The notes beneath the pieces were generated by a model. The model did no database searches. It was not told the origin of the DNA and saw only the letters and a program-made list of their open reading frames with translations. Source: Antedon mediterranea (taxonomy: Eukaryota > Echinodermata > Crinoidea > Comatulida > Antedonidae). Taken from it: a DNA stretch of 64,000 bases. The stretch is taken from the NCBI RefSeq assembly GCF_964355755.1, contig NC_092673.1:6391001-6455000 (forward strand). Direction: 5' to 3'. Positions 13,651 through 58,880 of the stretch are shown here, piece after piece. Each line of letters opens with the position of its first letter. Within the stretch, counting starts at the first letter, position 1. Position numbers and translations under genes: made by a program.

Positions 13651-14237
13651 AATCTGTAATAACACATAGTTCTGTTACATAAAAAAGGGGCAGAGAAAAT
13701 AACTCAGTACAGTGGCATGCACCAGCTAGCTTCATTTCCCAAATTCACCGCCGACATTTTAGGACATTCATTTTAAATCATTTATTAAAAGATTTTATAT
13801 AAATTGATCTAGGCCTATTTGTTAAAATTACAATTTACTGTGCTACATAATAATACATGCAGTAACCACTATTCGTCAAATCTGTTTATTGAAATACTGT
13901 CGTTCAAAAGTGAGTGCGATTACTGTAGCCATTACATGCAGTAATTAACGAACACACAATAACATACTAAGAAGCTAACTAACCTGAATACCAACTAAGT
14001 GTGGATTTGCTGCAACAAGATAAGGCTTAACCCTTTTAGATGTATACAGGATTAGAAAGGAATAGTCCGTCAAAAGACGCTAGATAGATAGAATTAAACT
14101 TACTAAGGTCTAGCGTCGTCATAATGACTACCGTACAGCTTCTGTTTTCTTCATTTACACTTTGGAAAGCAATGGCATTATTGCACACCTTCCCTGCTAA
14201 CCAGACCACTTGATAATGATTGAATACACATACCGTA
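13651..14237. other. no recognisable gene
   Basis: AT-rich spacer between LINE remains and the first copy of the lectin-locus duplication. Confidence 0.4.
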
Positions 14238-14552
14238 GATCAAAGTCAATTGTTTCTTACGCACATGGTGTAATCAAATATGCAAATCCGTAAATGCTTC
14301 ACTTATTTTAGCTTCTAGAACCCGGTTCTAAAACAATTATCAGACTCCATTTGGTAATGTTTAACGCAATATAAGGCCTACGTACTGTCTCGACATCCCA
14401 TTATTATATAACTAATACAATTCTAAAAACGTTCACAGGAAAGGTTAGAGAAAAATCACATTGGGCATGCCCAGACCGTAGCATAACCTATGAGATTTTC
14501 CGATGTCCCATACTTATATTTATGTATATATGATAAGACGTACGGTACTTAA

Positions 14553-14766
14553 AAACGTGATTCCCACTAGAACGCAACGCAACCTCTACGCAACGTAAGA
14601 AAAAGTGCTGTATTGCGTAATCACAAGTGGGAACCGACGACGCGAAAATGCTGCAAACATCACAGGTTTGATTGCACGCAGGCGGGGGCAAACACAATTA
14701 TTGGAAGGCCATTTTCTTACGTTGCGTAGATTGCGTTACGTTGCGTCTCTAGTGAGAACCACGCTT
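14553..14766. mobile_element. PIF/Harbinger-like MITE, copy 1
   Basis: The termini are inverted repeats (ACGTGATTCCCACTAG on the left, CTAGTGAGAACCACGCT on the right) flanked by TTA/TAA. The equivalent site in copy 2 (about 25134-25416) carries about 70 more internal bases, so this copy has an internal deletion. The TWA target site and TIR form fit PIF/Harbinger-derived MITEs; the superfamily is inferred. Confidence 0.6.
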
Positions 14767-16208
14767 AATAATTGTGTTTGCGCGTCAAACGTTAGTTGCC
14801 GTAGACTTTGATGCATATCAGTAATAGAGATAGCATGCACTCAAAGTCATATTCACATCTTAACACCCGCTTAAATATTCGCCAAACGTTTAAATGTTGT
14901 TTTCAGGGGCCTCTAAGCAACGTGGCATCTATACCCAGGAGAACCTAATTCCTGGGATACAAGTAAACCTAAAGTAAATAAAAGCCTAAGTAAATAAGTA
15001 GGCATACTTGCAACCCACGATTCAGGTAAGGTCATATTTTTGCTAATCGCCAAAAAAATAAATATATGTTATAATGTCGCATAGGCCTATGTCGGTAGCT
15101 TTTTGTATCAAAATAATAAACGCAATACCATTAATTTCTAATGTTCTTTATTCATATGCATTTGTTAGAAGACAAATTGACAAAATACGTAAACATTGCT
15201 TATTATGTATGTTTCTGTTGCCCGATACCGTTGAATATACGATCAAATTTAACCTGTATTTGCATTATCACCCTGCATGTCTGAAAAAGCTGTAAAAGAA
15301 AAATTAAATTTTAATTCTGACAATCCATAACAAAAACACCTTATAAACAGAAGAAGAAAGACTGAATAAAATGTGTAAACTCAAATAAACAAAGAGAACA
15401 CATTTTGAATTTGACGTTTCGAACAATTTCATCCTTTTCAACTGTTTCTTCAATTTTGTTTGTCTATTACTCTTTTTTACAAATATAATAAAAATAATTC
15501 TAGGCTTAAATACAAACAAAAAATAATAATAAAACAAATAAATAACTATAAAAAGATTACTATGAAATAGAAAAATAAATTTTAAAAGGAAACCCGGTTT
15601 CTGGAAAGAAGTATTATGAATATAGGCCTAATATAGATGTAAAATCACGAAACATTCTGTTATGGATGTGTGACGTGTCACAACTGCAGTTAGAAAGAAA
15701 ACAAAGTGATACAAAATGCAAAAGCAAAAGTCATAAATAAATCAACTTTCTCTGGCAAATGTAGGCCTCGGTTGGTAAATAAATTTCATTTTGTACGTAA
15801 ATAATTGGGTGACAAATTTCAGGTACAAAAAATAATCTAATTGAGCACTTAGGTTAGGCCTACACTACTTTAGTTGCTTCTTAACTTGCGTTTTTGTCGT
15901 AGATGTATTGTTCCCGAAAAACACGAAAATTGAAGATTAGGTAGGCCTAAATAAAACTATTTCCGTAGATAAAAAATACTTCGGCCTAAAAAACGGTTAA
16001 ATTAAACCAAAAAATCCACTGCCTGGCAATCAATTTGACTATATCTTTTGCTTTAAATTACATTTTTTTTTCTTTTTCCGATAAGTACATTTTTTTGATC
16101 CAATTTTTGGTCAAAGTAAATAACTATATTATGTGACAATAAAATGGCATATGCAAAACAAAATTGAAATTTGGAGAACAATAACAGGCATGCATCTTTA
16201 ACTTTTTA

Positions 16209-18443
16209 TTAAAGATTACGATTGAGCTTACGATGACAATTATAACTCGTGCCCATTGGCATACACATTTGTCCGATTTCACAAGGACTTCCTTCACATG
16301 GGTCTGAAACAGTAACCAAAATACATTTTAGTAGTCATCCCAAAGCTGGTTCCCACTAGCGACGCAACGTAAAGCTTGGTTCCCACTAGAACGTAACGCA
16401 AGGACGTAAACGCAAGGCAAGCGTTTTAACCAATGACAAGCGAAGTTATAGACAGTTAAGGCTGGTTTCCTGTCGACGTAAGAACATCACTTTTGTTGCG
16501 ACTACGTCGATTTGTCGTAAGAAATGCGGATTTTACAGGAAACCGATTACGATCGAAAATTTATAAAATCGACGTAACGTAAGAAAAATGGTAACGACAA
16601 ACGATTTTACAGGAAACCGATGACCTAACAATTGTTGCGTTACGACGTTTTCTTCCGATTTTACAGGAAACCGGGATTTTTTATCTTACGCTTGAATGAA
16701 CGCCCTTGCGTCACGTTTCTTACGTCTCTTACGAAAGTTGACTTGAAGTCAACTTTCGCAAGAGACGTAAGCGCAATCGTAACAAGCAACCAATGAGCGA
16801 CAAGAGTTATGACGTAATGTGTATGACCTTACAGTGAAATATAGCCGGACAATAACATTTGTATGTATTTACCGTACTACTACAATTTTAGCCCACTTTA
16901 CGATGTTGTACAATGTACATACTTTACAAATGCACAGTAGTTTCAATATAATATTGTTCTAATCAGGGAGTTTACAACTCACATCAAAATATAATACTCT
17001 TATTTATGGACGTGCAATAAACAATCCGCATTGAAACATTCGACATTCTTCTGTTCTATTTGTTGGTAGAAACGTCGCGAAAATGAACATTTGCAACAAG
17101 ATAAGATATAGAAAGCCCTTGTAAGCAATATAATATTATTATGTAACTTTAAAAAAAATGTTTGCTTGATTTTGTATAATTTATATTGTTTTGTCAATAT
17201 AAATTATATTTTGGTAGGCCTGGGCCCATAGGTAGGTCTAATAATAATAGGAATCCCGAAATGATTTGCCGTTTTTTAATTTTGAAAACTATTTAAGGCT
17301 AGGCCTACTAAGGCCAGAATAATTAATTCATATTTTGGTTCATACAATAGTGCATAGGCCTAGCCTATTAGCCTGGCTCCTAGGCTAGTTTGATATTTTG
17401 GTCAAATCCATTCCTATTAGTACAGTATTAATTAAGTATTATCACTAATACTAGGGCCTAGCATATCTACTAAAAATAATATGTTGGTGTGCTGCACTGA
17501 CACTGAGTAGCTACAGGTACAATAACAACATTCAACATTTCGCGCGAAAAATGACAAAACCCGCTCTAAAAAGAAACACCAATCATAGATGTTGTTTCAA
17601 ATACGTCATAAATCCGACCGACGTAAGAAAAAAATTTCAACTTTCGTAACAACACTAAAATCGACGTAAGCATACGACGTGTGTTTCACAGCCAAAATTT
17701 CAACTTTCGGGAGCAGCATAACTACAGATGTTTCTCTGTGGCCCGACACGATCTTGACTAACGTCAACGACGTCAATTTTTTCTCAACTTTCGTAAGAGA
17801 CGTAAGAAACGTATGAAACGCAAGAATCGTTGCAAAATTCAACTTCTTACGTCGACAGGAAACCAGCCTTTAGCAATCACAAGCGAATAAGCCATCGCTT
17901 GTGATTGGTCAATTCACTTGCGTTGCGTTACGTCCTTGTGTTGCGTCGCTAGTGGGAACCACGCTTAACGCAACGCTACGACGTATTGACGCAAAGTGCT
18001 GTATTGCGCCGTAATCACAAGTGGAAACCGACGACGCAACAGTGCTGCAAACAACAGGTTTGATTTCACGTAGGAGGTGGGGGAAAACTAAAAAATACGC
18101 GGGATGAACCAGGTCAAAGTCTACGGCATGCTAACATGACGCGCAATAAGCATATTTTTTTTTATTTCACGCGGACGGAGGCAAACACATTTACTGGAAG
18201 AGCATTCTCTTACGTTGCGTAGGTTGCGTGACGTTGCGTCGCTAGTGGGACCCTAAACACACCAACATCTAAGATTAAAGTGGGAGATGTAAGCGTGGTT
18301 CCCACTATAAATACCTAGACTAGAACCAAGCTCTACTGGTTGATATTTCGTATAACGTTTGTCAATAATTACTAACCATATGCCATTACGACTGCTGCAC
18401 ACAAGACAATAAATGCGATTACAAGAAATGCTCGATTCATCAT
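16209..18443 (-). CDS. CTLD-less two-exon secreted peptide gene (lectin locus copy 1)
   Basis: Exon 1 is 18443-18377. It starts with tandem ATGs and encodes a 22-residue signal peptide (MMNRAFLVIAFIVLCAAVVM, then AY), with donor G|GTTAGT. Exon 2 is 16303-16209, with acceptor GTTTCAG and stop TAA at 16211-16209. They join in phase 1, and the split codon gives Asp. The product would be about 53 residues. The mature part, about 31 residues, has four cysteines in an EGF-like start (DPCEGSPCEIGQMC, later YNC) and a basic end. In copy 2 the same two exons flank two CTLD exons, so here the lectin domain is missing. The MITE stack fills the intron. Both splice signals are intact. It may be an expressed short peptide, or the remnant of a lectin gene that lost its domain. 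Expression is unknown. Confidence 0.55.
16373..17965. mobile_element. middle MITE, split by an inner element, copy 1
   Basis: The TIRs are AGCTTGGTTCCCACTAG and CTAGTGGGAACCACGCT, flanked by TAA on both sides (16370-16372 and 17966-17968). Without the inner element the two halves match the intact 180-bp MITE at 25590-25769, including the join at ATAGAC(A/G)GTTAGCAATC. This shows it was whole before the inner insertion. Confidence 0.8.
16459..17869. mobile_element. inner 1.4-kb TIR element, copy 1
   Basis: The TIRs are AGGCTGGTTTCCTGTCGACG and CGTCGACAGGAAACCAGCCT, flanked by TTA target duplications at 16456-16458 and 17870-17872. The 3-bp TWA target fits PIF/Harbinger. The interior repeats TTTTACAGGAAACCG three times near 16525-16675, has a long hairpin at 16716-16771, and shows no transposase frame, so the element is non-autonomous. 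Confidence 0.75.
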
Positions 18444-19736
18444 GGTGATTCTAGTATTTAAAAAAAACATATTATTTGTGAACTCGCCACTTTGGACGGG
18501 ACGAGGTTAACTAACATGACACATGAACGACGTGTACATTGGCTATAAACGGAAAAATTGATTAAGTATGCCATTCTATGTGACCTGAAGATGCACGTTT
18601 ACAGTACTAAGTTGTTTGAATTTACAGAATATTTTATGTATACAGTGTATTAGGTACAATTACGGGACCCCACTTATATATTCTACATTTTGTATATGAT
18701 ACGTCAGCAAAAAAAAATTAAAAAAAATATGAAGGTAAAATTTCGGACGATATTTTTCTGAGCAACAACATTCAGTATTACAATTTCAAAGAAATTCGGC
18801 ACGTAGAGGCGGGAAGCGCGCTCTTTTTAAAGTAGATAAAGTATGACCAGAATTCATATCTTAACAATCAACACGTCCAGGTATGCGTGTAGTTCACAGT
18901 CATTGTACTTACCGTCCTGATTCCTAGCCTAAATAATACCTACCTTCTTTCAATAATACCAACTTAAGAGATGTTCAATAATTGGCAGCTGGGACAGGAA
19001 TACAAGTTGTATAGGCCTGTACGCCGCGACATTTATATTCGTTACAAAATGCAAATGTATTCAATAAAATGTGTTTGTTATGTTAAAAATTAAAAGGTTA
19101 TATATAAATTTAAGGTTGTGGCATTTACGTATCTGGCAAAACAAAAGTTTTATTTTATTTAAAGGTTATCTTGTAAATATATAATTCGTAACTGGGACAG
19201 GAATAGAAGTTATATACGGCGCGACATTTTTATTCGTTACAAAATGCAAATGTAATCAATAACATGTGTTTGTTATGTTAAAAATTAAAAGGTTTTATAC
19301 AAATTAAGTAAGTTTGTTGCATTTATGTATCGGGAAAAACAACAGTTTTATTTTATTTCTAAAGGTCATCCTGTTGTAAATATAAAATTAAAATTTAGAA
19401 TTTTGAATAATATTAAATAAATTTATGGTTGTGAAATTTTACGTATCGGACAAACAGAATAGGTCATCGGTAGGCCTAATTCAAATTCATTTCAAATAAA
19501 AAAATGTCGGTAAATTGTACAATTAAAAAAAAACACATTTGATTTGATTAAAAATTCACACGGTCATACATGTTTGTTTATGTTAAAAATGAAAAGGTTA
19601 TATATACATTTAAGGTTGTGCCATTTACTTATCGGGCAAACAAAATGATTTAAAATTCACACGATCATAGCACAAGAAAATCAAAATGGGTTTAACAATT
19701 AAATCTAAGAAAAATTAAAATCAAAATAATTAGGAA

Positions 19737-19935
19737 AATGGCAGTCTTATCACTATACAGATATACCATGGTTGACACAATTTATGAGTGAGTGGCCGAG
19801 CGGTTAATGGCAGTCTTATCACTACAGATATACCATGATTGACACAATTTATGAGTGAGTGGCCGAGCGGTTAAAACAGTCACACGGTAATTACGTAGCC
19901 ATAATATCGACAAGGGTTCGAAGGCTCACTCGCTC
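19737..19935 (+). repeat. tRNA-like sequence (SINE or tRNA pseudogene)
   Basis: It has an A-box-like TGGCCGAGCGG and a B-box-like GGGTTCGAAGG, with ends GAGTGAG and CTCACTC that could pair as an acceptor stem. The T-arm 3' side does not pair properly, so a working tRNA is unlikely. A unit of about 68 bases containing the A-box part is tandemly doubled here (about 19737-19873); copy 2 of the locus has it once (33054-33120). Confidence 0.5.
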
Positions 19936-20099
19936 CGTTGTACGGAGAACAAGTCTTCTCGGAGAAGCTATAGTTTAAGCTCATGCGCAATTTAAAGAGT
20001 TACACACACACAGCCAATGTATAAAGGCAAAAACAACCCCTACTACCCATCCCCCACCCCTCCGCACTACAACAACCAATTATAATCGTTACTCTACAG

Positions 20100-20272
20100 G
20101 TAGTAGTAGTAGTAGTAGGCCTAGTAGCAGCAGAAGCAGCAGCAGCAGTGGTGTGTAGCAGCAGCAGCAGCAGAAGTAGCAGCAGCAGTAGTGGTAGCAG
20201 TAGTAGCAGCAGCAGCAGCAGCAGCAGCAGTGGTAGCAGCAGCAGTAGCAGCAGCAGTAACAGTAGTATTAT
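20100..20272. repeat. AGC/AGT trinucleotide repeat
   Basis: An imperfect (AGC)n/(AGT)n microsatellite, also present in copy 2 at 33301-33416 with a different length. The minus-strand reading (poly-Ala/Thr) is a repeat artefact. Confidence 0.9.
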
Positions 20273-20680
20273 ATAGTTTTCGAGTAGACTTTTTACTTTC
20301 CTGGAGTGTTAATTCCATAATAAAATTATTTCTTTATTCGATAAACACATTGATTTTTACTTAGTTTTCTATAAATTAAAATTGTCTTGCTGTCTGATAT
20401 TATACATTTATGGCTGTTTCTGTTTAATACCGTTGAATATAGGAAGAACTTGTTTTCTATGGGCTTATTACAGCAGTATTTAATTCGATTAAAAAAATAT
20501 GTAGTTTTGTTTAAATTAATTAACATCTGGTTTAGGTTTGAGTTGCATTTTATCTGGTTAGTATTAGGAGAGACTTCTTAGCAAGATGCTTGACTGCTCG
20601 CGAATTGCTGACTGTGTTCATCATCCTACACTCCTACATGATGATACTCCTCTCGCTATGCCTGCACCCGCTGCGGCTTC

Positions 20681-21073
20681 TACAGTCTAGTCCTCGCTAA
20701 TGATGATATACAACGAGCCCATCGAGTTGGACCACGTAATACCACCAGGGATAAACCGAGACCACTTGTTGCATACTTTCTCAGATATTCCACTAAAGAA
20801 AGAGTACGCAAGGCAGCTCCAAAAGTGAGACCTAAATTTAAAGATAATAACATCTACGTAAATGATGATTTTACCAGCAGAGTGATAAGTAGAAGAAAGG
20901 CATTATACTCATCGATGAAATACCTGCATTTCAACAAAGTAAAGGCCTGGCTCCACCTTGACAAATTGCGTTACATAGATGCAAATGGTTATGTTCGCAC
21001 ATTCATCGACATGGATCATCTTGCCAAAATACTACCCGAACCTCAAGGAAGCACATGCCCCCGAAGCTACTAA
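20681..21073 (+). pseudogene. LINE ORF1 remnant
   Basis: An open frame from about 20681 to the TAG at 21073 shows the C-terminal domain pattern of LINE ORF1 proteins. DIQRAHRVG comes first, then KPRPLVAYFLRYSTKERV, then NIYVNDDFTSRVISRRK, then KAWLHLDKLRYID. These proteins bind RNA and act as nucleic-acid chaperones. The N-terminal part is missing or unrecognisable and no start codon is clear. Confidence 0.65.
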
Positions 21074-21261
21074 GTAATTCTAGTCGTCGCAATAATTTAA
21101 CTTTACTTTGACTCTACTTACCGTCAACCGAAATATTACCTATAATATATTTTTATTTCAAGAATTGTTTATTTTGCTTCTCATTAATTATGTATTAATG
21201 TATACAGTCTCATGCATGCTTATTGCTGTATTTCTTTTTTAGATAACGCTATACGCAGCTA

Positions 21262-24200
21262 TTGTTAATGAATGTTAATTATCTTCACTTACTTCCTTTT
21301 TATGACTTTAATGTGAACTCTGAACTTACTAACAACAATGATATTTCTAACATAACTTTTAATCCAGTTAATTACAATGAAAATGACAAATATGATGAAT
21401 CTTTTGATCAACTAATTAATAATCTCAATTCACAGTCAGTTACCCTAGATGAATGCAGCTTTTATGATTATTCACAATTTAATTCTAAGTTTAATACATC
21501 CTTTAATACTAAACTATCTCTCCTGCATCTTAATATTAGAAGTATTACGCATAAAGTTAATGATCTCGAATGCCTTTTGAATTCAATTAATAACAAATTT
21601 TCCATAATCGGTATCAGTGAAACATGGCTTAATGAAAACTCCCCTATTCCTTTCATTAATAACTACTCCTTCTTTGCAAGCAATAGAAGCAATAATCAAA
21701 TTGGCGGAGGAGTTGCATTTTTTATACGTAATGATATTAGCATTACAATTCGAAATGATTTAAAATTACCAGACGACCTTTCCGAATCACTTTTTGTTGA
21801 GATTGAAAATTCAAAGACAAAAAATGATATTATAGGCATTATTTACAGAGCCCCCTGTGGAGGGCTAGATTCTTTTACTAAATCCGTCGATAATGTATTA
21901 ACCCAAATTAACAATGAAAACAAAAATTGTCATCTCATGGGAGACTTCAATATTGATTTATTAAAATTCCATAACCATAAATTAACAAACACCTACCTAA
22001 ATACCTTAATTTCCCATTCTTTTTTTCCAACTATTTCAAAACCAACTAGGATTACCTCAACTTCGGCCACCTTGATTGATCATTTTTATTCCAAACAATC
22101 TAACTATAAAATAGTTGCTGGTGTTTTACTTAATGATATCTCCGACCACCTTCCTATATTTCAGTTCATTGATCAAGAAATTAATGATCAAAACCTTGAT
22201 GATAATAGCGCCAACTATTCATTTCATATAAACGACCTAAATGCCTTATCGATTGATTTAGAAGGTGAAGACTGGTCTATGATATTTGATTGTGACCCAA
22301 GATTGAGTTTTGATATATTTATTGAAAAAATTTACAAATATCCACTCCAGACACTTGATTAAAAGTAGTATAAAATCAAATAAAACGTTTAAACAACCAT
22401 GGATGTCATCTGCTCTCTTAAAATGTAGTTCTCGGAAACATAAACTTTATAACAAATATATGCACACGTAGTAATAATGACAAATTAAACTATACAAAAT
22501 ATAATAATATTTTCACTAATCTTTGTCGCACTGCTAAAAAGAATTTCCCAGTTTGATAGATATAAAGGTAATCTGAAGAACACATGGCTTGTAATAAATT
22601 CTGTTTTAAATAAAGGTAATAATAATAACAAGCACCCGAATCTAATTAAAGACGGTGATAATATTTACAAAACTCAAAAAGAGATATGTGAATCGTTTAA
22701 CAACTATGTTTCTACAATTGGTCCTAATCTTATTAATACTGTAGTATGCCAACTAATATAACTGATCCATTATCTTATCTTCATTCTGCGTTTGCCAACT
22801 CATTTTATATTAGCCCAGTTTCAATCGATGATGTTAACCTAACTATATACAATCTAAATTCTAATAAAGGGTCTATTACTGCTCGTGTCTTAAAATCTGT
22901 ATCTCCCTTAATCATCCACCAACTTACCCATTGTATAAATTCATCGTTTTTATCTGGCACTTTTCCAACACACTTAAAACTAGCTAAAGTTGTGCCCATT
23001 TTCAATAAAAGTGAACGAAGTCAATTATCTAATTACCGGCCAATATCACTACTTTCAGTCTTTTCCAAAATTATTGAAAAACTCATGTATTCTAAACTTT
23101 CTGATTATCTCACAAAATTTGATATACTTAATAAACGCCAATATGGTTTTTCGAAAAAATCACTCTACATCCCATGCCGTTTTAGATCTTATTAATAATA
23201 TTACAAATTCATTTGAATCAAAAGAAAATTTATTAAGTTTATTTATTGATCTTTCAAAGGCCTTCGATGTTATTAATCACGATAATTTAATTTAAAAACT
23301 TGAGTGCTATGGAATTAGAGGTATTTCATTGAATTGGTTTAATGGTTATTTGAAAGATAGAAAACAATATGTTGCGTTAGGATCTTGTACATCGTCGACG
23401 ATGGATATTACTTGCGGAGTGCCACATGGATCTGTGCTTATTTATGTTAATGATCTGGCTAATGTCAGTAACAAAATGCAAGTAATATCCTTCGCCGACG
23501 ACACCACCTTATTTTACTCTAATTCAAATATTGATTTATTATTTACTACGTTCAATGATGAATTAACAACATTTTGTGACTGGTTTATTTCAAACAAATT
23601 ACTTATTAATACTCTTAAAACAAATTATTTAATTTTTCACAATTCTCAACGTAAACTAAAAGTTGATAACCTAAATATACTTCTTGACGGAATTCAAATT
23701 GAACGCAAAACTGAAACACTTTTTTTAGGTGTATATATTCATGAAAACCTCAAATGGACCAGTCATCAAAATTACGTTTCGAAAAAAATATCAAGATCTA
23801 TTAGTATTATTAACAGACTTAAGCACTTCTTCTCTCTAAATATTTTAATTTCTCTTTATAACACACTTGTACTTCCTTATTTCCAGTATTGTAACATTAT
23901 TTGGGCTGCAGATTACTCTTCTAATATTGCTAGATTAACTATTATAGAACCTCATCTGAACCCCTTTTTAAACGTCTTGGTATATTAAAATTAACGGATA
24001 TCCACAATGTTCAAGTTGCCAGTTTTATGTTTAATTATTTTAAAAACCAACTTCCTATTTCTATGATTGATATGCTCTGTAAACGTACCAAATTTCACAA
24101 TTACAATTTAAGAACTTTTCATTTAAACATTCCTTTTGCTAGACTTACTAAAACTAATTTTTTTATAACTATATCAGGTCCTAATTTGTGGAATCATATC

Positions 24201-24374
24201 CCGCCAAATATCAAAACGTCAATATCATTATTTACTTTCCGAAAAAAGTTAAAGAATCATTATATATCTAAATATTATACTGCTTTGTTAATATGCTTAT
24301 TATCATTATTTATACTCGTATACTATTTATGTTTACACAAAATATTAGTTGTTGTTTATTATTGCAATCTTTAA
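21262..24374 (+). pseudogene. LINE ORF2: AP endonuclease and reverse transcriptase, broken
   Basis: The endonuclease part is intact over 21262-22362. Counting from 21262, catalytic residues are Asn91 (LHLNIRS), Glu120 (ISETW), Asp228/Asn230 (GDFN) and Asp295/His296 (SDHLPIF). RT motifs follow in pieces. NYRPISLLSVFSKIIEK lies in 22746-23195. A frameshift near 23150 leads to FIDLSKAFDVINHDNLI with a TAA at 23293. GVPHGSVLIYVNDL lacks about six residues where GPLLFL is usual. FADDTTLFYS follows near 23491. A frameshift near 23960 precedes the C-terminal part (24027-24374), which includes GPNLWNHIPPNIK. The motif set fits the CR1/L2/Rex group; the exact clade needs a tree. Confidence 0.9.
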
Positions 24375-24420
24375 TTTATACTATATATAATGTATATATA
24401 GTATATACTATATATATACT

Positions 24421-24822
24421 GGAATTATAATTTATGTATACATATTTTTTTTTTCATTTACCAATATCGGTAGTTATTTCATTTATAATTATCATGAAAC
24501 TATTGAAATATAATTTAAATAATTTTTATAAAGAAGATGTGCATGCGGAAGAGCGTGAGGGACCGGAGGAAGAGGGCCTGCAGGCATTGGTTAACCGGAT
24601 GGTTCCAACAGTACTGGAATTCCTATGAGTCGACCACGTGCAACGTAAACAACTGAAAATTGAGAATGCACTTCATCAGTCACACCTCCACTATCAATTC
24701 ACATGCATCAGTTGCATGTGGTTGCATAGGTGTTGTATACAGGTAGTGCCAGCTAGGTGGCGAACACAGTCAGCATTCTTGCCCCATCGTTATCTCCACA
24801 AACATCACACCAGTAGCCATCA
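24421..24822. other. unassigned spacer with a coding-like fragment
   Basis: Between the LINE end and duplication copy 2, the GC-richer stretch 24536-24628 stays open to a TGA and includes AEEREGPEEEGLQALVNRM. It could be a displaced exon piece. No family was recognised. Confidence 0.25.
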
Positions 24823-25133
24823 GATCAAAGTTAATTGTTTCTTACGCACATGGTGTAATCAAATATGCAAATCCGTAAATGCTTCAGTTATTTTAGCTTC
24901 TAGAACTCGGTTCTAGAACTATTATCAGACTCCATTTGGTAATGTTTAACGCAATATAAGGCCTACGTACTGTCTCGACATCCCATTATTATATAATTAA
25001 TACAATTCTAAAAACGTTCACAGGAAAGGTTAGAGAAAAATCACCTTGGGCATGCCCAGACCGTAGCATAACCCATGAGATTTTCCGATGTCCCATACTT
25101 ATATTTATGTATATATGATAAGACGTACGGTAC

Positions 25134-25416
25134 TTAAAAACGTGATTCCCACTAGAACGCAACGCAACCTCTACGCAACGTAAGAAAATGCCCTTCTAAA
25201 AGCGTGGTTCCCACTAGAACGCATCGTAGCGTAACGCAGCGACGTATCGACGCAAAGTGCTGTATTGCGTAATCACAAGTGGGAACCGACGACGCGAAAA
25301 TGCTGCAAACATCACAGGTTTGATTTCACGCAGGCGGGGGCAAACAATTATTGGAAGGGAATTTTCTTACGTTGCGTATATTGCGTTACGTTGCGTCTCT
25401 AGTGAGAACCACGCTT
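25134..25416. mobile_element. PIF/Harbinger-like MITE, copy 2
   Basis: Same site as 14553-14766, with the terminal core ATTCCCACTAGAACGC. Internally it shows a second terminus-like sequence (AGCGTGGTTCCCACTAGAAC near 25201), so it may be a MITE inserted in, or recombined with, a relative. It is longer than the copy-1 version. Confidence 0.55.
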
Positions 25417-25589
25417 AATAATTGTGTTTGCGCGTCAAACGTTAGTTGCCGTAGACTTTGATGCATACCAAGTAATAGAGATAGCATGTACTCAAAGTCA
25501 TATTCACATCTTAACACCCGCTTAAATATCCGCCAAACGTGGCATCTATACCCAGGAGAACCGAATTCCTGGGATACAAGTAAACCTAA

Positions 25590-25769
25590 AGCTTGGTTTC
25601 CACTAGAACGTAACGCAAGGACGTAAACGAAACGCAAGCGTTTTAACCAATGACAAGCGAAGTTATAGACGGTTAGCAATCACAAGCGAATAAGCCATCG
25701 CTTGTGATTGGTCAATTCACTTGCGTTGCGTTACGTCCTTGTGTTGCGTCGCTAGTGGGAACCACGCTT
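25590..25769. mobile_element. intact 180-bp PIF/Harbinger-like MITE
   Basis: TIRs AGCTTGGTTTCCACTAG and CTAGTGGGAACCACGCT with a palindromic centre, flanked by TAA at 25587-25589 and 25770-25772 (with one extra T beside the right end). The empty site is preserved in copy 1 at 14970-14972. This is a clean filled/empty comparison. Confidence 0.85.
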
Positions 25770-27143
25770 TAAGTAAATAAAAGCCCAAGTAAATAAGTAG
25801 GCCTACTTGCAACCCACGATTCAGGTAAGGTCATATTTTTGCTAATCGCCAAAAAAATAAATATATGTTATAATGTCGCATTAGGCCTATGTCGGTAGCT
25901 TTGTGTATCAAAATAATAAACGCAATACCATTAATTTCTAATGTTCTTTATTCATATTCATTTGTTAGAAGACAAATTGACAAAATACGTAAACATTGCT
26001 TATTATGTATGTTTCTGTTGCCCGATACCGTTGAATATACGATCAAATTTAACCTGTATTTGCATTATCACCCTGCATGTCTGAAAAAGCTGTAAAAGAA
26101 AAATTAAATTTTAATTCTGACAATCCATAACAAAAACACCTTATAAACAGAAGAAGAAAGACTGAATAAAAGGTGTAAACTCAAATAAACAAAGAGAACA
26201 CATTTTGAATTTGACGTTTCGAACAATTTCATCCTTTTCAACTGTTTCTTCAATTTTGTTTGTCTATTACTCTTTTTTACAAATATAATAAAAATAATTC
26301 TAGGCTTAAATACAAACAAAAAATAATAATAAAACAAATAAATAACTATAAAAAGATTACTATGAAATAGAAAAATAAATTTTAAAAGGAAACCCGGTTT
26401 ATGGAAAGAAGTATTATGAATATAGGCCTAATATAGATGTAAAATCACGAAACATTCTGTTATGGATGTGTGACGTGTCATAACTGCAGTTAGAAAGAAA
26501 CCAAAGTGATACAAAATGCAAAAGCAAAAGTCAAAAATAAATCAACTTTCTCTGGCAAATGTAGGCCTCGGTTGGTAAATAAATTTCATTTTGTACGTAA
26601 ATAATTGGGTGACAAATTTCAGGTACAAAAAATAATCTAATTGAGCACTTAGGTTAGGCCTACACTACTTTAGTTGCTTCTTAACTTGCGTTTTTGTCGT
26701 AGATGTATTGTTCCCGAAAAACACGAAAATTGAAGATTAGGTAGGCGTAAATAAAACTATTTCCGTAGATAAAAAATACTTCGGCCTAAAAAACGGTTAA
26801 ATTAAACCAAAAAATCCACTGCCTGGCAATCAATTTGACTATATCTTTTGCTTTAAATTACATTTTTTTTTCTTTTTCCGATAAGTACATTTTTTTGATC
26901 CAATTTTTGGTCAAAGTAAATAACTATATTATGTGACAATAAAATGGCATATGCAAAACAAAATTGAAATTTGGAGAACAATAACAGGCATGCATCTTTA
27001 ACTTTTTATTAAAGATTACGATTGAGCTTACGATGACAATTATAACTCGTGCCCATTGGCATACGCATTTGTCCGATTTCACAAGGACTTCCTTCACATG
27101 GGTCTGAAACAGTAACCAAAATACATTTTAGTAGTCATCCCAA

Positions 27144-27247
27144 AGCTGGTTCCCACTAGCGACGCAACGTAAAGCTTGGTTCCCACTAGAACGTAACGCA
27201 AGGACGTAAACGCAAGGCAAGCGTTTTAACCAATGACAAGCGAAGTT
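27144..27247. mobile_element. left ends of outer and middle MITEs, truncated (copy 2)
   Basis: Same sequence as 16344-16447 in copy 1, but it breaks off after CAAGCGAAGTT at 27247. The matching right parts resume only at 31060. The 3.8 kb between holds both CTLD exons and a full inner element. Confidence 0.8.
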
Positions 27248-27309
27248 GAGAGACGTAGAAAAGACGCCACTGTCATACGACGCGCAATTAATTAAATGCG
27301 CAAAATGAA

Positions 27310-27415
27310 AATTAATTTCAACGTTATAAAATTATTTTCAACATTATACAACTAATTTCAACGTTATAAAATTATTTTTCAACGTTATGAAATTAATTTG
27401 AACATTATAACTGGC
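27310..27415. repeat. short tandem repeat in lectin intron 3
   Basis: Four or five imperfect copies of a unit of about 22 bases around TTTCAACGTTATAAAATTA. It is found only in copy 2. Confidence 0.7.
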
Positions 27416-27965
27416 CTGAAACTACTACGTCACTGTCTTTTCATCACGGTATCGAATTAGGATTAGGAAACGTCTTATAGGTGGTTTAAACTATATGAAG
27501 TGCTAAAATGATTTAATTGTGTGGTGTGGTTAAAATGGATGGGCATACAATAGATTAGAAGACGAAGTAAGCAATGGACAGAAGGACAGACAGACCAAGC
27601 TGATTTCATTTACCTTCACCCTTCAAGGAGCAAGATAACTATTCTGACATATTTCAGTACCCTCTAATAGAGTAATTTAAAGACCACTAGTCGTTGGTAG
27701 TCGGAGGGGTTCTATACTAAAGACTCCTAAAACCTGGGTCCCAAAGGTGTTCTTTAATTGGATGGAGAGCTGTTAGTCCTTCCGTTTATAGCATGCTCAT
27801 ATGTATACCTTTTTAACACTGCTACAATTATTAAAATACGATAAAAACAATATTTACCCGCTTCGCAAATACTCGCTTTAAATACAGAACATGACACGTC
27901 ATTGTAACAGTATGAGTCACTAATGTACTCAACGCAATTTCCATCACCAGACGGGTTACCCGGAC

Positions 27966-28302
27966 GCGATATTTCTTTTCGTACATAAGTTGGGGACCCC
28001 TCGTGAAACGTCACAAAATATGCATGAATATTCATTAGTCATATCAATAAGGTGTGACGTAAGAATTAAGCTAACTACAATTCGCTAATGCAAACGATTT
28101 CTGTCGAGCCGTCTGTGTAGTCGAGTGGATAAGACTATGGACTTAACATGTCGATGTATGAGGTTCGATTCCCATGAGCTACTTCTTTTACTTTATAGTG
28201 AGAGAGAGATTATTAAGAGGGTTAGGTTTAGTTTATATTTAGGAAGTAGTTCGGCTGACTTTCACATGGGGTCCCCAACTTATGTACGAAAAAAAAAATC
28301 GC
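27966..28302. mobile_element. 337-bp MITE inside CTLD exon 3, 9-bp TSD
   Basis: TIRs of about 35 bases start GCGAT and share TTCGTACATAAGTTGGGGAC. TACCCGGAC is repeated directly at 27957-27965 and 28303-28311, a 9-bp target duplication. Long TIRs and a 9-bp TSD fit a Mutator-like MITE; this assignment is inference. Inside, at 28118-28128 and 28162-28172, are pol III A-box-like (TAGTCGAGTGG) and B-box-like (GGTTCGATTCC) sequences, as in a tRNA. Confidence 0.85.
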
Positions 28303-29547
28303 TACCCGGACACCAATCTGATTTAATAAGAAATAATGTACAGAAAGACAATTACATTTTCTTATGCTTATTTTTTATCTTTATACAGGATTATACAATC
28401 AAATACAAGAAAACCTGTTTTGCATTGTGGTCCTGTCTTAAATAAAAATAATAAACAAAAAGTAAAAAAAATTAGTTTTGTGAAAAAATCGATCGGTATC
28501 TAGCTTTAATTAAAAGGGGTTTGCAAAAAAAAGAAGACATTTTAACTGTAATACTGTACCTGAATATAAGAAGAACCTAAGTCCACACAAAAGTATTTTA
28601 AGAAAATAAAATATATTGTTGGTTATATGACAATTTACGTATTCATATCTAAATGTAAAATGATATAGCACATGATTATATGCGCTTCTGTTGCATCATG
28701 GGAACGCGTTAAAGACAATGGACTTGGGTCCTTATAATCATGTTGTATAGTGAAATCTACATATTCGTCAACAGAGAGCGCTATCAATTGTGTGTAAGAA
28801 AGGCCCAAGTCCCTGGGTTGGGCTCTTCTTGTATACATACCGGTATTCTATCACGTGTAATTAGTACTTGACTTGAGTCCATAATTCATACACAAGTTAG
28901 CCCTATGCATAAGTGACAATTTTCTATGCTTAACTAAATTTGGCCAAATTCTTCTTCTGATTTTGGAGAGTAGGCCTAATGAAAATAACCCGATTTTTTT
29001 TACTGGGAAGGTGTATTAGAGAAATACTATGAGTAAAATGAGGTATCAAAAGATTATTACTCTTACTTGAAAATGTACTTGTCGTGCCAGTTCGTGCCCA
29101 TTTAAACACATCGTCTTCTTTACGACTACCGATAAAAATCTTTTTATATTTTGACGTCAATATTGAAGTGCGGCGTACAAGGTTATCTAAAACTGTTTCT
29201 TCTTCTACCGTGTCATATGAAACAAGATCACCGCCTAACTGTTGGCACGTTTCTCTTGCTCTGTCGTAGGTCATGGGAGTTGTGTTTATGTAATATTTCT
29301 CATCATGCCATGGTGTCCAAGATATTTCTGAAATAAAAAGTCAACAAAAATACGATTTCAATATTTAGTTATATTTTCCATTTTTCACATTTATTTATAA
29401 AATAATATAAATAATGATAATGAATAATTTAAATAGTTTTGTTTCTATAGTAGTAATCTCCGTTTATGCCATACTCATATGTCGGGTTCGAATATGCGCT
29501 TCATCGTGACTGTGGTTACACACGCGGCTGCGGTGAATCTATTTTTA

Positions 29548-30983
29548 AGCCTGGTTTCCTGTCGACGTAAGAACATCACTTTTGTTGCGACTACGTCGAT
29601 TTGTCGTAAGAAATGCGGATTTTACAGGAAACCGATTACGATCGAAAATTTATAAAATCGACGCAACGTAAGAAAAATGGTAACGACAAACGATTTTACA
29701 GGAAACCGATGACCTAACAATTGTTGCGTTACGACGTTTTCTTCCGATTTTACAGGAAACCGGGATTTTTGATCTTACGCTTGAATGAACGCCCTTGCGT
29801 CACGTTTCTTACGTCTCTTACGAAAGTTGACTTGAAGTCAACTTTCGCAAGAGACGTAAGCGCAATCGTAACAAGCAACCAATAAGCGACAAGAGTTATG
29901 ACGTAATGTGTATGACCTTATAGTGAAATAAAGCCGGACAATAACATTTGTATGTATTTACTACTATAATTTTAGCCCACTTTACAATGTTGTACATACT
30001 TTACAAATGCACAGTATAGTTTCAATATAATAATGTTCTAATCAGGAGTTTACAACTCATATCAAAATATAATACACTTATTTATGGACGTGCAATAAGT
30101 AATCAGCATTTCAAAGAAACCGACATTCTTCTGTTCTATTTGTCGGTAGAAACGTCGCGAAAGGTGAACATTTGCAACAAGATAAGATATAGTAAAAAAG
30201 TGTTTGCTTGATTTTGTATAATTTATATTGTTTTGTTAAATTTATTCTTATTATAGGCCTGTAAATAATGGGTATCTTACTGCGGTAGTACTATCTCATG
30301 CTCGATTAGAGTATGCCTGGGCCCATAGGCCAAGGCCTAGCCTAGGGCATAAGTAGGTCTAATAATAATAGGAATCCCGAAATGATTTGCCTTTTTTTTA
30401 ATTTTGAAAACTATTTAAGGCTAGGCCAGAATAATTAATTCATACTTTGATTCATACAATAGTACATAGGCCTACTAGCCTAGGCTAGTTTGATTAGATT
30501 TTGGTCAAATCAATTCCTATTAGTACAGTATTAATCATGGAGTAAGTTATTACTAATTCTAGGGCCTAGCCTATCTACTAAAAATAATATGTTGGTGTGC
30601 TGCACTGACACTGCTGCTGAGTAGCTACAGGTACAATAACATCATTCAACATTTCACGCGAAAAATGACAAAACCCGCTCTAAAAAGAAACACCAATCAG
30701 AGATGTTGTTTCAAATACGTCATAAATCTGACCGACGTAAGAAAAAAATTTCAACTTTCGTAACAACACTAAAATCGACGTAAGCATACGACGTGTGTTT
30801 CACAGCCAAAATTTCAACTTTCGGGAGCAGCATAACTACAGATGTTTTTCTACGGCCCGACACGATCTTGACTAACGTCAATGACGTCAATTTTTTCTCA
30901 ACTTTCGTAAGAGACGTAAGAAACGTATGAAACGCAAGAATCGTTGCAAAATTCGACTTCTTACGTCGACAGGAAACCAGCCT
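29548..30983. mobile_element. inner 1.4-kb TIR element, copy 2
   Basis: Counterpart of 16459-17869 with TIRs starting AGCCTGGTTTCC, flanked by TTA at 29545-29547 and 30984-30986. The left flank is lectin intron sequence. The right flank is a truncated end of the same family (30987-31056), not the MITE directly as in copy 1. Confidence 0.75.
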
Positions 30984-30986
30984 TTA

Positions 30987-31056
30987 CGTAAAATCGACGT
31001 AACAATCGTAACTGACGTTAGAAAAACTTACTCTTACGTCGACAGGAAACCAGCCT
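30987..31056. mobile_element. truncated right end of a second inner element
   Basis: It ends in CTTACGTCGACAGGAAACCA plus GCCT and is followed by TTA and the right half of the middle MITE. Only copy 2 has this extra end, so two family members have been here. Confidence 0.75.
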
Positions 31057-31439
31057 TTAGCAATCACAAGCGAATAAGCCATCGCTTGTGATTGGTCAAT
31101 TCACTTGCGTTGCGTTACGTCCTTGTGTTGCGTCGCTAGTGGGAACCACGCTTAACGCAACGCACGACGTATTGACGCAAAGTGCTGTATTGCGCCGTAA
31201 TCACAAGTGGAAACCGACGACGCAACAGTGCTGCAAACAACAGGTTTGATTTCACGTAGGAGGCGGGGGAAAACTAAAAAATACGCGGGATGAACCAGGT
31301 CAAAGTCTACGGCATGCTAACATGACGCGCAATAAGCATTTTTTTTTTTATTTCACGCGGACGGAGGCAAACACATTTACTGGAAGAGCATTCTCTTACG
31401 TTGCGTAGGTTGCGTGACGTTGCGTCGCTAGTGGGACCC
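31057..31439. mobile_element. right parts of middle and outer MITEs, copy 2
   Basis: Counterpart of 17870-18252. The middle MITE ends at about 31151 with GGGAACCACGCT, and the outer one at about 31439 with TCGCTAGTGGGAC. They lie on the far side of the CTLD exons from their left ends. Confidence 0.75.
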
Positions 31440-33053
31440 TAAACACACCAACATCTAAGATTAAAGTGGGAGATGTAAGCGTGGTTCCCACTATAAATAC
31501 CTAGAACCAAGCTCTACTGGTTGATATTTCGTATAACGTTTGTCAATAATTACTAACCATATGCCATTACGACTGCTGCACACAAGACAATAAATGCGAT
31601 TACAAGAAATGCTCGATTCATCATGGTGATTCTAGTATTTAAAAAAAACATATTATTTGTGAACTCGCCACTTTGGACGGGACGAGGTTAACTAACGTGA
31701 CACATGAATTCGTTGGCTATAAACGGAAAAATTGATTAAGTATGCCATTCTATGTGACCTGAAGATGCAGGTTTACAGTGCTAAATTGTTTGAATTTACA
31801 GAATATTTTATGTATACAGTGTATTAGGTACAATTACGGGACCCCACTTATATATTCTACATTTTGTATATGATACGTCAGCAAAAAAAAAAAAAAATAT
31901 GAAGGTAAAATTTCGGACGATATTTTCTGAGCAACAACATTCAGTATTACAATTTCAAAGAAATTCGGCACGCAGAGGCGGGAAGCGCGCTCTTTTTAAA
32001 GTAGATAAAGTATGACCAGAATTCATATCTTAACAATCAACACGTCCAGGTATGCGTTTAGTTCACAGTCATTGTTAGACTTGCCCCAAGTCTGTATTGT
32101 TTTTTATTTTTATTTATTTGTTTTTATTTCGACTGCGATTTTTGTATCCAAACTCAAATAATACACGTATGAAACGCCATATGTGCAAAAATATTTATAT
32201 TTTACTCCGTCTGGAGCCCAGACTAAGTCATTGTACTGACCGTCCTGATTCCTAGCCTAAATAATACCTACCTTCTTTCAATAATACCTACTTCAGAGAT
32301 GTTCAATAATTGGCAGCTGGGACAGGAATAAACGTTGTATGTACGCCGCGAAATTTATATTCGTTACAAAATGCAAATGTATTCAATAACATGTGTTTGT
32401 TATGTTAACAATTAAAAGGTTATATATAAATTTAAGGTTGTGGCATTTACGTATCTGGCAAAACAAAAGTTTTATTTTATTTAAAGGTTATCTTGTAAAT
32501 ATATAATTCGTAACTGGGACAGGAATAGAAGTTATATACGCCGCGACATTTATATTCGTTACAAAATGCAAATGTGTTCAATAACATGTGTTTGTTATGT
32601 TAAAAATTAAAAGGTTTTATACAAATTAAGTAAGTTTGTTGCATTTATGTATCGGGAAAAACAACAGTTTTATTTTATTTCTAAAGGTCATCCTGTTGTA
32701 AATATAAAATTAAAATTTAGAATTTTGAATAATATTAAATAAATTTATGGTTGTGAAATTTTACGTATCGGACAAACAGAATAGGTCATCAGTAATTCAA
32801 ATTCATTTCAAATAAAAAAATGTCGGTAAATTGTAAAATTAAAAAAAAACACATTTGATTTGATTAAAAATTCACACGGTCATACATGTTTGTTTATGTT
32901 AAAAATGAAAGGTGATATATACATTTAAGGTTGTGCCATTTACTTATCGGGCAAACAAAATGATTTAAAATTCACACGATCATAGCACAAGAAAATCAAA
33001 ATGGGTTTAACAGTTAAATCTAAGAAAAATTAAAATCAAAATAATTAGGAAAA

Positions 33054-33175
33054 TGGCAGTCTTATCACTACAGATATACCATGATTGAAACAATTTATGA
33101 GTGAGCGGCCGAGCTGTTAAAACAGTCACACAGTAGCCTAATTACGTAGCCATAATATCATATCATATATATATT
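33054..33175 (+). repeat. tRNA-like sequence, copy 2
   Basis: A single, more diverged version of 19737-19935 (AGCGGCCGAGCTGTTAA). The B-box part has been replaced by TATATA-rich sequence, so it is not functional. Confidence 0.4.
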
Positions 33176-33300
33176 AAGATCATGCGCAATTTAAAGAGTT
33201 ACACACACATAGCCAATGTATAAAGGCAAAAACAACTCCTACTACCCATCCCCCACCACTCCGCACTACTACCAACAACCAATTATAATCGTTACTCTAC

Positions 33301-33378
33301 AGGTAGTAGTAGTAGTAGCAGTAGTAGCAGCAGCAGCAGAAGCAGCAGCAGTGGTAGCAGCAGCAGTAGCAGCAGCAC

Positions 33379-33410
<32 letters not shown>

Positions 33411-33416
33411 TAGTAT
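33301..33416. repeat. AGC/AGT trinucleotide repeat, copy 2
   Basis: Microsatellite counterpart of 20100-20272, shorter and with a different unit order. Confidence 0.9.
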
Positions 33417-33671
33417 TATATACTTTTCGAGTAAACTTTTTACTTTCCTAGAGAGTTAATTCCATAATAAAATTATTTCTTTATTCGATAAACACATTGA
33501 TTTTTACTTAGTTTTCTATAAATTAAAATTGTCTTTCTGTCTGATATTATACATTTATGGCTGTTTCTGTTTAATACCGTTGAATATAGGAATAACTTGT
33601 TTTCTATGGGCTTATTACAGCAGTATTTAATTCGATTAAAAAAATATGTAGTGTTGTTTAAATTAATTAAA

Positions 33672-34344
33672 AAAATGGTTTAGTGTTAGCCAAATCGTCA
33701 GCTTTATAGATAAATTATAAACTCGTTGGTAACAAAATGCTGTAATGTACTTTTATAAGTGTTACCCCATTTCACAACAATAAATAAATGTATGGTAATA
33801 CTAATAAATGATGGAATATACTTAGTTTCTCAATGTATATATACTGCTGTTTTTAGAAATGTTTGTTTGTATACGCCTAAGTTTAACATGTTTTTTCCAA
33901 TTTAGTCTACAATCTATTTCTATTCCGAGAAATGTTGTGTTAAGGGAGACAGATACATTTCAATTTATTGTTGCTTTAGTTTCACAAGTAACGTTTTTGG
34001 AATTGAAGATTATATAATTGGTTTTTTAAAACTTTTAACGAAAGTTTCTTGAATGTAAACCAATGAAGTTTATTTAACTCATTACTGACAATCATAGGCC
34101 TATTTTGTTGCAATGTAATTATTACCTATACTCTAGTAGCTGGATCAACTTTCGTATGCACTGAATAAAAGGTCCGGGCATTTAGTTATTCAGGGAAGGC
34201 GTTTATTTTGTTTGGGTGTAATAATGGTAACATGTATAATCAAATAAATACACCCCAGATTAAAAAAAAAAAATTAATATAATAAGAATAATAACTGGAT
34301 TAAACCTCATTCTATCCTGTTGCAAGTACAATCATGTAATACTT
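33672..34344. other. no recognisable gene
   Basis: AT-rich spacer between the duplication and a LINE 3' end. Only short open frames occur. Confidence 0.4.
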
Positions 34345-34662
34345 CAAGATTCAAGATTCAAGAAATTTTATTTGTCCATAAAATGGAAATTCACTTTGCT
34401 TGGTAGATTAAAACAACAGTATAGCAACAATTTAAAAACGTGCAGTATGATAACAGATTAAAGATACAAGATAAAAAGTTAAAAATACTGTTAAAAATGT
34501 AAAACTATTAAAAATTGCATTAACGTCTTACATTAGAATTAAAAATATGAATGCTATTTACAACGAAGGATTTTCTAGTTCTACAAAGATTTGCTCTCGG
34601 AGGTCGTAGCCTAATGCCTGATCTATTTAAGTTATAACAGTAATGTAACGGATGAGTGGGGT
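34345..34662 (-). mobile_element. LINE 3' end, part 1 (ORF2 C-terminus and 3' UTR)
   Basis: Read on the minus strand, an open frame gives HPLHYCYNLNRSGIRLRPPR, then RTRKSFVVNS, then a TAA. This is the usual C-terminal pattern of CR1/L2/Rex-type ORF2. A 3' UTR follows and ends in a CTTGAAT-type repeat tail. The frame continues from 41932-42270 on the other side of the foldback element. Confidence 0.75.
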
Positions 34663-35099
34663 ATGGCAAGCCTCAGCTGTCTGAAGTATTCAAAATATTA
34701 TATTATTATATCATTTTTTTATTATATTATATATTGTATTGTAATGAATTATACGTTTTGCATTATATTACTTGGTTTTAGCATTATAATTATATCTATT
34801 TCTAATATATTATGTGAAAAATGTAACAAATTATTGACTTTTTGTATTATATTATTTGGTTTTAGCATTATATTATGAACATTTAATATTATATTATTAA
34901 TAAAATACATTATATTATAATATAATTGTATTATATTAAACGCATTTACTTTACTTTATAACATACAACATTATTATATTATACGGATTCGTTAGTTATA
35001 TTATTATTTTGTATGATGTTTATTATACGTCACGGCTTATTTCAGTTCTTCTAACTCTTTCTCTCCCTCCCCCTGTTCACTAGCAATCAGCGGCCGGCA

Positions 35100-35455
35100 G
35101 AATCTGAATTGTGTGACTGTTGAAGAATAACTAAGTACTAGGCCTAGCCTAGGCCTACTAGGGGATCTAGACAAGTGACCAAGGATCACCGGACAGCTAC
35201 AACTAATACTACAATACAATAATACTACTACAATAACTACTACTGCTACTACCTAGGCCTAGCTAGTGAGTAGTAGGTAGCTACTACTAGGCTCTAGGGC
35301 GTATGTATGAATGATGTTAACTACTACGGCCTAGGCTAGGCCTAGAGGCCTACTAGTACTAGGCTAGGCCTAGACTTAAGTTGTAGTAGGCTAGGGCCGG
35401 GCCTGCTGCCTTAGGCTAGGCTACTACTACTACTACTACTACTAGGCAGCCCATG
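35100..35455. repeat. AGGCCTA/CTA-rich block in foldback left arm
   Basis: A dense run of TAGGCCTAG and CTACTA motifs, mirrored at about 41130-41465 in the right arm with more indels than the rest of the arms. Confidence 0.7.
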
Positions 35456-38195
35456 ATGGGTACGAGTAAGCCAACATTTTGGATATATGTAAACCAAAAT
35501 TTGGGTACGAGCGTGTTGGCATGGCATGGGTACGGGTTGACCTGTATCCTTCTAGCTAATCGTACTATGCCTAGGCCTCAAGTAAGTCTACACTACCCAG
35601 TCCGGCTACAATATGGTCTATTTTGTTTTATAGCTTTATTGATAGCTGGGTTCAAATCTGTGTTGGGACGGCTTTCTCTCATTCTAAAACAGATTTCCTT
35701 ATAATAAAATAATATATGAATTTATTTGTAATATTGTAATGTATACATAATATAAGTAATTGCCATTGCCTTTATTACTATTAATTATGTATTATACGGT
35801 TACCCCTTAATTATACTATAGTATAATTTCCTTGTTATATTTTACAATATTTTCATCCTAATTCTACAATTTTGTCTTTCACAGCACAAATTTATCATAC
35901 TGAATCATCACACACCAAGTCTCATAAATCTCTACTGTATTTGTCCAAGCTACTCCAGCTACGGTACATGGTATTGCCTTGAGGCTAAACTACACAGTAT
36001 ACTGGCACTACCATCATTCCTGGCTCGTCTACCTGTACCACATAAGCACAGTTTCAGTTTCAGTTTATTTACCATTTCAATTTCTGAACATAAGAGATGA
36101 ACAACTTATATGGATGGATAACCGTAAGAGCGAAGCTCGTTTACCGGTCACCCATTAGTCCAGTGACATTACAGACAACATAAAGACAGGACAAAGGTGC
36201 AATACTTAACAAGACATGTGAACACTTGTGTTTGCAACCCCTTGGATAAAATAATATATTTATATAATGGAGAAAGTTAGAAATTATAATATTTCTTTTT
36301 GATCATACAATGATAATTTTTAAATTACTTCTTAAGAAGTCATACTACTGATTCAATATAGTGACTTACACCCTGTGGTCAAGGCTTTCTTTGCTCTTAT
36401 GCTTATTTCCTCCAACATACAGAGTATATAGGACTTTTTTTATTCATAACTGTTGAATTGTTTCCCAATACATAGTACCTATTGGTATTATATCTAAAAA
36501 TACAAAGGCGGCTAACACAGATAGTTCCATATATACAGTACTCTTTTATAAATAAATTTATCTCTCCAAACTACTCCCAACTACCTAATCTAATAATAGT
36601 ACTATTAGCATACTACTATACACTTTGTAGATAAGAAATAAGTTGTATACACTAGAGGACTTATGGTAGTACAGTCGATCGCCCTCTCACTGGCCCGGTC
36701 AACATAATCTATACCTAGATTATTACAGTAATTAAAGTACATTATTACAGAGTTTTGTTTTTTTTTGCAGAAATCAAAGTTATGTGTATAGAAAGCAGTA
36801 CTCGTATTAAAAACTAAGCAGGTTGCAGGTCTTGAACGCAAACTGACAGGATATTTTGAATATTTTTTGTTGTTGAAATGATGGAATCCTAACTTCAATT
36901 TCCACGAACTGGAGACGAAGACATATTATGACCCTTTTATTTAAATTTATTTGAATAGACCTCCATGTAAACTAATTAAAGGCTACATGATTGTTTTATA
37001 TTTTAATATGTGATAGTAGAAAATCATTGTGTATAATGAGGACTATGAATCTGATATTTACTTGCATTCTTATCTTTTTAAAATATTATTTATAATGCCG
37101 GTAATGAGTTTAAAATTTAATTATATTGACTATTGTTGATAATCATCATGTCCTTATAAATTCATTTATACTTTTTTTGTGTAATATAGTTCATATATTA
37201 TGTATTAAATAAATTGGTAAGGCCCTATACTGTTATTATTTAAGGAAAGTTTATATATACTATTATTTTATGCCTACCAATATTAGTATTAATTGTTTAT
37301 GTAAATATTTTGTCTAATTGCCTTGATTTTTGTATAGGCCAATGGCATCAATGTTTTTCTCAAAGCAAATTAGCCTAATAATGCCACATTTAGACACATG
37401 ATTCATTGATTTCTGATATTCTGTACTTGTGTATGCATTACTAAAATAGTAGTTAATATTATTTCATTTATAATGTATGTATAAACATATATTCATATTT
37501 TTTTTAACATTTTTAAATTTAAAAATTATTACAATACCTATCTACCTTTCTGATATTGTTACTATTATATAATATTTTTTGAGGCAGCAATAAAAAAAAA
37601 TAAAAACATTTATTTGACTTATACTGTACTATGTTAGTTCAGAAGATGAAGTGTGTGTGGGCAGAAACTAGTGTGTTGGAGGTTGGTGGTGTGAGGTGTA
37701 TAGTTGTCACTTTAAGACCTAAATTAGATGTTTTCTGAAGAAAAGAAGTAAGCGGATACGCTTTCAAACAACTCCAAGAAGATTCACACAAAAATAGTTA
37801 CTTTCCAATAAAATAGTATAACAGTGTATATTACAGTACATTGAATAAACTCGAGCGGAATAATAACGCACATAAAAAACATTCATTTTCTTGTCGAAAA
37901 GTGCCCTCTCTAGTTTTCTATTAATTTATTAATAATTATTATCAATTAATGAGTAATATAAACATATTTTTAACATTTAATGCTGGAAACTGTATCTACT
38001 CCTAACAAAGTTTCATATCTCCAAATTTTATCAACGTATTCAAAGCACTTAAATAAATTACATTTAACATTACAAATTCAGGTTTTGGATATACGTAATT
38101 TTGCTTAAAAACATATACAAAAAACATCGATAAAAAATACTTTTCGTATTCAAAAACATTTGATACTTGGTATAAATGTTCAATATAGGTTGCTC

Positions 38196-45612: not shown

Positions 45613-58880
<13,268 letters not shown>

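Follow-up and report, generated by a model that had tools for sequence, protein, structure and literature searches.

A recent exon-shuffling event with donor, target and both joints still readable: a lectin domain of chromosome C6 origin in a transposon nest of Antedon mediterranea

Introduction

The usual evidence for exon shuffling consists of ancient domain patterns. The locus described here resembles the classical shuffling of phase 1-1 modules, in that a complete C-type lectin domain (CTLD) with phase-1 introns on both sides lies in the sense orientation in a phase-1 intron. It differs from the classical cases in its divergence of ~1%, in a donor and joints that can still be read, and in a module that is now broken.

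A second related process is the patching of gaps after transposon-linked breaks (PMC4423477; Wicker et al., 2010, as cited there). The course outlined through that citation, with a break at a DNA transposon, deletion of the flank, foreign DNA in the gap and gene movement, is matched by the reading preferred here. In rice, excisions commonly lose flanking bases and acquire foreign filler DNA, the fillers averaging 13 bp with a range of 1–123 bp (PMC4423477). The filler of 2.3 kb found here is far above that range, which is typical of filler patches without defining them. Furthermore, unlike the gap patching described (PMC4423477), the present case is found in an animal genome, and its filler corresponds to exactly one symmetric protein domain that abuts the terminus of a nested element. 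Pack-TYPE transposons are also similar: they hold coding DNA close to terminal inverted repeats, at a target duplication (PMC8903248). The present locus differs in having only the right end of its putative carrier, and no carrier copies were found elsewhere.

The kind of event is already known; the completeness of its record is unusual. With divergence at ~1%, the donor, the acceptor, a sister copy without the patch and the two joints can all still be found, so that this lectin-domain route to a new gene is directly testable, and the case shows a shuffled module being spoiled soon after its arrival.

Results

The window, the whole stretch of 64,000 nucleotides of A. mediterranea that was analyzed (NC_092673.1, positions 6,391,001 to 6,455,000), was compared with itself and with the genome. 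Two tandem copies, 96–99% alike in most blocks, were found (Table 1). The sequence before 14237 was unrelated to that before 24822, as was the sequence after 20535 to that after 33683, and no gap or repeated flanks were found at the copy boundaries. The tandem copies, the ends of the outer and middle MITEs and the TAA and TTA duplications reported in the initial annotation were all recovered, as were the signal and tail exons, present in both copies on the minus strand. The outer and middle MITEs lie in the intron between these two exons in both copies. Non-LTR retrotransposon fragments were observed between the copies (21262–24374), with an endonuclease domain according to Pfam and later ORFs that were reverse transcriptase-like by eye.

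Table 1. Features of the two tandem copies (positions in the window)
Feature	Position	Strand	Remarks
Tandem copy 1	14237-20535	+	Without CTLD; self-BLAST; divergence by block
Tail exon, copy 1	16209-16303	-	Apparent first half of EGF-like domain, then stop
Outer MITE, copy 1	16343-18252	+	Split by middle MITE
Middle MITE, copy 1	16373-17965	+	TAA on both sides; element C at its TTA; solo relatives known in genome
Element C, inner, copy 1	16459-17869	+	Young B/C-family element; TTA target duplication; independent of copy 2
Signal-peptide exon, copy 1	18376-18443	-	MMNRAFLVIAFIVLCAAVVMAY; phase 1 at end
Tandem copy 2	24822-33683	+	With C6-derived CTLD piece; self-BLAST
Tail exon, copy 2	27009-27103	-	Third cysteine replaced by arginine
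Left parts of outer and middle MITE, copy 2	27147-27247	+	Broken shortly before TTA; 11 bp including TTA gone
CTLD piece (patch)	27249-29547	+	Matches C6:6652052-6655347; one internal CTLD, two exons, introns
CTLD exon B	27858-28317	-	Interrupted by MITE
337-bp MITE in exon B	27966-28302	.	9-bp target duplication TACCCGGAC (27957-27965 / 28303-28311)
CTLD exon A	29067-29327	-	Phase 1 at both ends; Pfam Lectin_C 4e-8; splice sites
Element B	29548-30984	+	Complete B/C-family element; left end is right edge of patch
TTA and last 70 bp of A-family element	30985-31057	+	At middle MITE's TTA; 99% matches elsewhere
Right parts of middle and outer MITE, copy 2	31058-31439	+	
Signal-peptide exon, copy 2	31557-31624	-	

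In the genome-wide search the tail exon gave only weak EGF-like matches (39–57% identity), and its translation resembles the first half of an EGF-like domain. No further match to the signal exon was found in the window or the C6 region, the places searched. Copy 1 can still encode a 53-residue peptide of signal and half-EGF, which matched no Pfam family. The same lectin locus had been claimed for both copies; nevertheless, only copy 2 contained a CTLD, the source of which was traced to chromosome C6.

The CTLD piece of copy 2 matched C6 colinearly from end to end, introns included. Substitutions were found at 20 of the 1916 sites compared with gaps ignored (1.04%, ~99% identity), and identity was 95–98% when gaps were counted. 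No other match over the full length of the piece was found in the genome, the C6 donor being unique in the assembly. On C6 the domain is internal to a multi-CTLD gene: one CTLD precedes it (exons at 6657742 and 6657143) and another comes after it (6651802 and 6651376). This order, shared by two paralogous genes, identified C6 as the donor side. These comparisons pointed to C6, another chromosome, as the place from which the CTLD piece had come into copy 2, and not to a loss by copy 1. The donor exons were thus found elsewhere with their introns kept, as in exon shuffling by duplication at the DNA level, and the symmetric phases fitted the host intron, with phase 1 at all joints and the same strand. 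With a unique donor on another chromosome and all splice phases being 1, the earlier proposal that a 2.3-kb CTLD-bearing phase 1-1 piece had entered the nest of copy 2 was supported.

Several other origins of the piece were considered. Retrocopying was ruled out by the retained introns. An assembly chimera joining C6 to the chromosome of the window (C4) was unlikely, since each side carried its own changes: an insert of ~1.3 kb in C6, on the left-edge side of exon B, that is missing from the C4 copy, the 337-bp MITE in C4, for which C6 has the empty site, and the 1% of substitutions. Recombination between MITEs beside the donor and in the nest was also rejected; related MITEs lie on C6 36 bp and ~120 bp outside the donor edges, and the joints are not inside them.

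The initial annotation had placed the end of the left parts of the nest in copy 2 at 27247 and the resumption of the right parts at 31060. The break after 27247 was found as stated, the resumption was found at ~31058, and the CTLD exons lay between. Its two junctions, 27247/27248 and 29547/29548, proved to be sequence breaks within 1–3 bases. At the left joint the patch takes the place of 11 bp ending with the TTA of the middle MITE, its left edge being the break of the nest. At the right joint it stops exactly at the left terminus of element B with its TTA: C6 can be followed as far as CTATTTTT, after which the window reads A-AGCCTGG, with at most 2 bases in common. The microhomology of at most 1–2 bases at the joints does not distinguish copying from capture. 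As in a filler-DNA patch, the joint lay at the left terminus of B and the flank had been lost, namely 11 bp of the middle MITE together with A. For B to have landed at this joint later, it would have had to choose about 1 in 164 TTA/TAA sites.

The claim of a common three-layer nest held for the outer and middle layers, shared by both copies, and failed for the inner ones, which are element C in copy 1 and element B with 70 bp of an A-family element in copy 2. Element C differed from a sibling on C1 (C1:37991771) at 4 of 1411 sites (0.28%) and from a copy on C9 at 5 sites, and it differed from element B at 58 of 1337 sites (4.3%). Common descent of the inner elements of both copies was ruled out by this comparison (4.3% between C and B vs. 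0.28% between C and the C1 copy). Element C entered the middle MITE's TTA later and independently.

This TTA was also found occupied by A-family elements on C2 and C5, and at ~85 sites of the genome the same left-hand sequence of the middle MITE was followed by another MITE-like end at, or within 1 base of, that TTA. The TTA is a reused target, and many copies of the MITE serve in this way; independent insertions at one TTA in both copies are therefore plausible. The initial annotation had regarded the rebuilding of the middle MITE of copy 1 as a puzzle. This puzzle falls away, since the inner element is an independent insertion at a reused target and copy 1 needed no rebuilding; most simply, its middle MITE was never broken. 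A solo middle MITE at 25586–25771, found in copy 2 and not in copy 1, likewise points to recent activity of the family. The middle-MITE motif AAGTTATAGACAGTAAAGCTTGGTTCCC was also seen repeated every 86–87 bp at C6:1226414-1226614 and C8:3483789-3484160, apparently as small arrays built from tandem copies of the element's left half.

To the right of element B, the A-family sequence TTACGTAAAATCG is followed by the middle MITE. A-family elements elsewhere in the genome are 2.5–7 kb long and 99% like the 70-bp remnant of copy 2. The two ORFs of a 7-kb member (L058) had no significant Pfam match, and no A-family transposase was identified. On C5 (L070, C5:3985400-3987200), a B/C-family element was found to occupy the same A-element TTA that was deduced for copy 2, so that element B had most likely been nested in A before the patch arrived. 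This C5 locus itself is seemingly part of a larger nest. The inner, middle, A, B and C elements have a 3-bp TTA/TAA target duplication, as in the PIF/Harbinger superfamily, and Harbinger-type elements target TAA/TTA (PMC4423477).

Divergence was used for relative timing. The outer flanks of the duplication differed at 36 of 1713 sites (2.1%), compared with 1.04% for the C6-C4 pair (Fisher p = 0.01), and by this measure the C6 transfer is younger than the outer flanks. The flanks adjoining the nest differed between the copies at only 6 of 1245 sites (0.48%), a value not significantly different from that of the C6-C4 pair (p = 0.11). The low divergence beside the nest suggests that the copies either have recently exchanged sequence or have an allelic history. 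Element B carried 17 private changes in 1426 sites, whereas for the C4 side of the patch ~10 in 1916 would be expected (p = 0.05), which hints that B may be older than the patch.

The signal exon, CTLD exon A, CTLD exon B and the tail exon all join in phase 1 and in the same direction, so that a chimeric signal-CTLD-half-EGF protein would have been possible when the patch arrived. In the assembly, the CTLD of copy 2 is not intact: exon B is split by the 337-bp MITE and reads into stop codons. The copied CTLD has been spoiled by a later transposon, and the tail of copy 2 lacks one cysteine.

Discussion

The structure of copy 2 is probably best explained by a break, with its right end at the terminus of element B and its left end in the middle MITE, that was patched with a copy of C6 DNA. 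According to this explanation, an A-family element would have occupied the middle MITE's TTA and carried element B close to its right end. A double-strand break would then have eliminated 11 bp from the left part of the middle MITE, along with the whole of A as far as the precise left terminus of B. We infer that transposase, cutting at the left ends of A and B, most likely opened or enlarged this break; cuts at these two ends would give the geometry of the gap, and reactions in which two adjacent elements each contribute an end have been described for maize (PMC4270019). The gap would have been filled by a 2.3-kb copy of C6, a chance piece reaching into the introns that flank one internal CTLD, and the CTLD would thereby have landed in a small secreted gene, with the signal exon on one side and the half-EGF exon on the other. 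A lectin domain could come to lie between these exons because the piece is a symmetric phase 1-1 unit, received in sense in a phase-1 intron.

Capture in the manner of Pack-TYPE transposons is an unlikely origin: an A-family transposon would have taken the C6 CTLD to the middle-MITE TTA of copy 2 and later lost its left end, B being inserted afterwards. The right side is indeed closed by A's right end, with the TTA target duplication that such an insertion would leave, and A elements use the same TTA elsewhere. Nevertheless, the left end of A is absent and the genome holds no second copy of such a carrier; moreover, B would have had to hit the boundary of the capture exactly, at one of the 164 sites mentioned above, and it looks older than the patch. 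Very unlikely is a piece that predates the tandem duplication and was removed from copy 1 by a deletion or by conversion from a CTLD-free allele. The initial annotation had left room for this course, with a loss of the exons followed by conversion of the nest. Its second half gained some support, since the divergence beside the nest (0.48%) is below that of the outer flanks (2.1%) and, not significantly, below that of the C6-C4 pair, and an exchange around the nest is likely. The loss itself is opposed by the greater age of the outer flanks relative to the transfer, by the unbroken middle MITE of copy 1 and by the finding there of no CTLD exon remnants and no remnant of the patch, A or B.

The assembler could also have strung together two alleles of a single locus, which would make the CTLD patch a presence/absence polymorphism, and this has a small but real chance of being the case. 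The inner elements differ as those of haplotypes would, and the divergence of 0.4–2.2% is within the allelic range of many marine invertebrates. Against it stand the copy boundaries, with no gap or repeated flanks and with unrelated sequence outside both copies. This reading is compatible with the patch mechanism and bears only on the duplication, the C6 origin being unchanged.

A wider role of nested DNA transposons as a recurrent site of exon shuffling in this genome, with paired left-end cuts, gaps filled with kilobase pieces of genes and a reused TTA that reloads intron sites, is quite unlikely. Elsewhere in the window, two further rearrangements were observed: a 7.3-kb inverted repeat with arms 94.9% alike and almost no spacer (34662–41924), and a tandem duplication of 694 bp, 99.9% identical (53363–54749).
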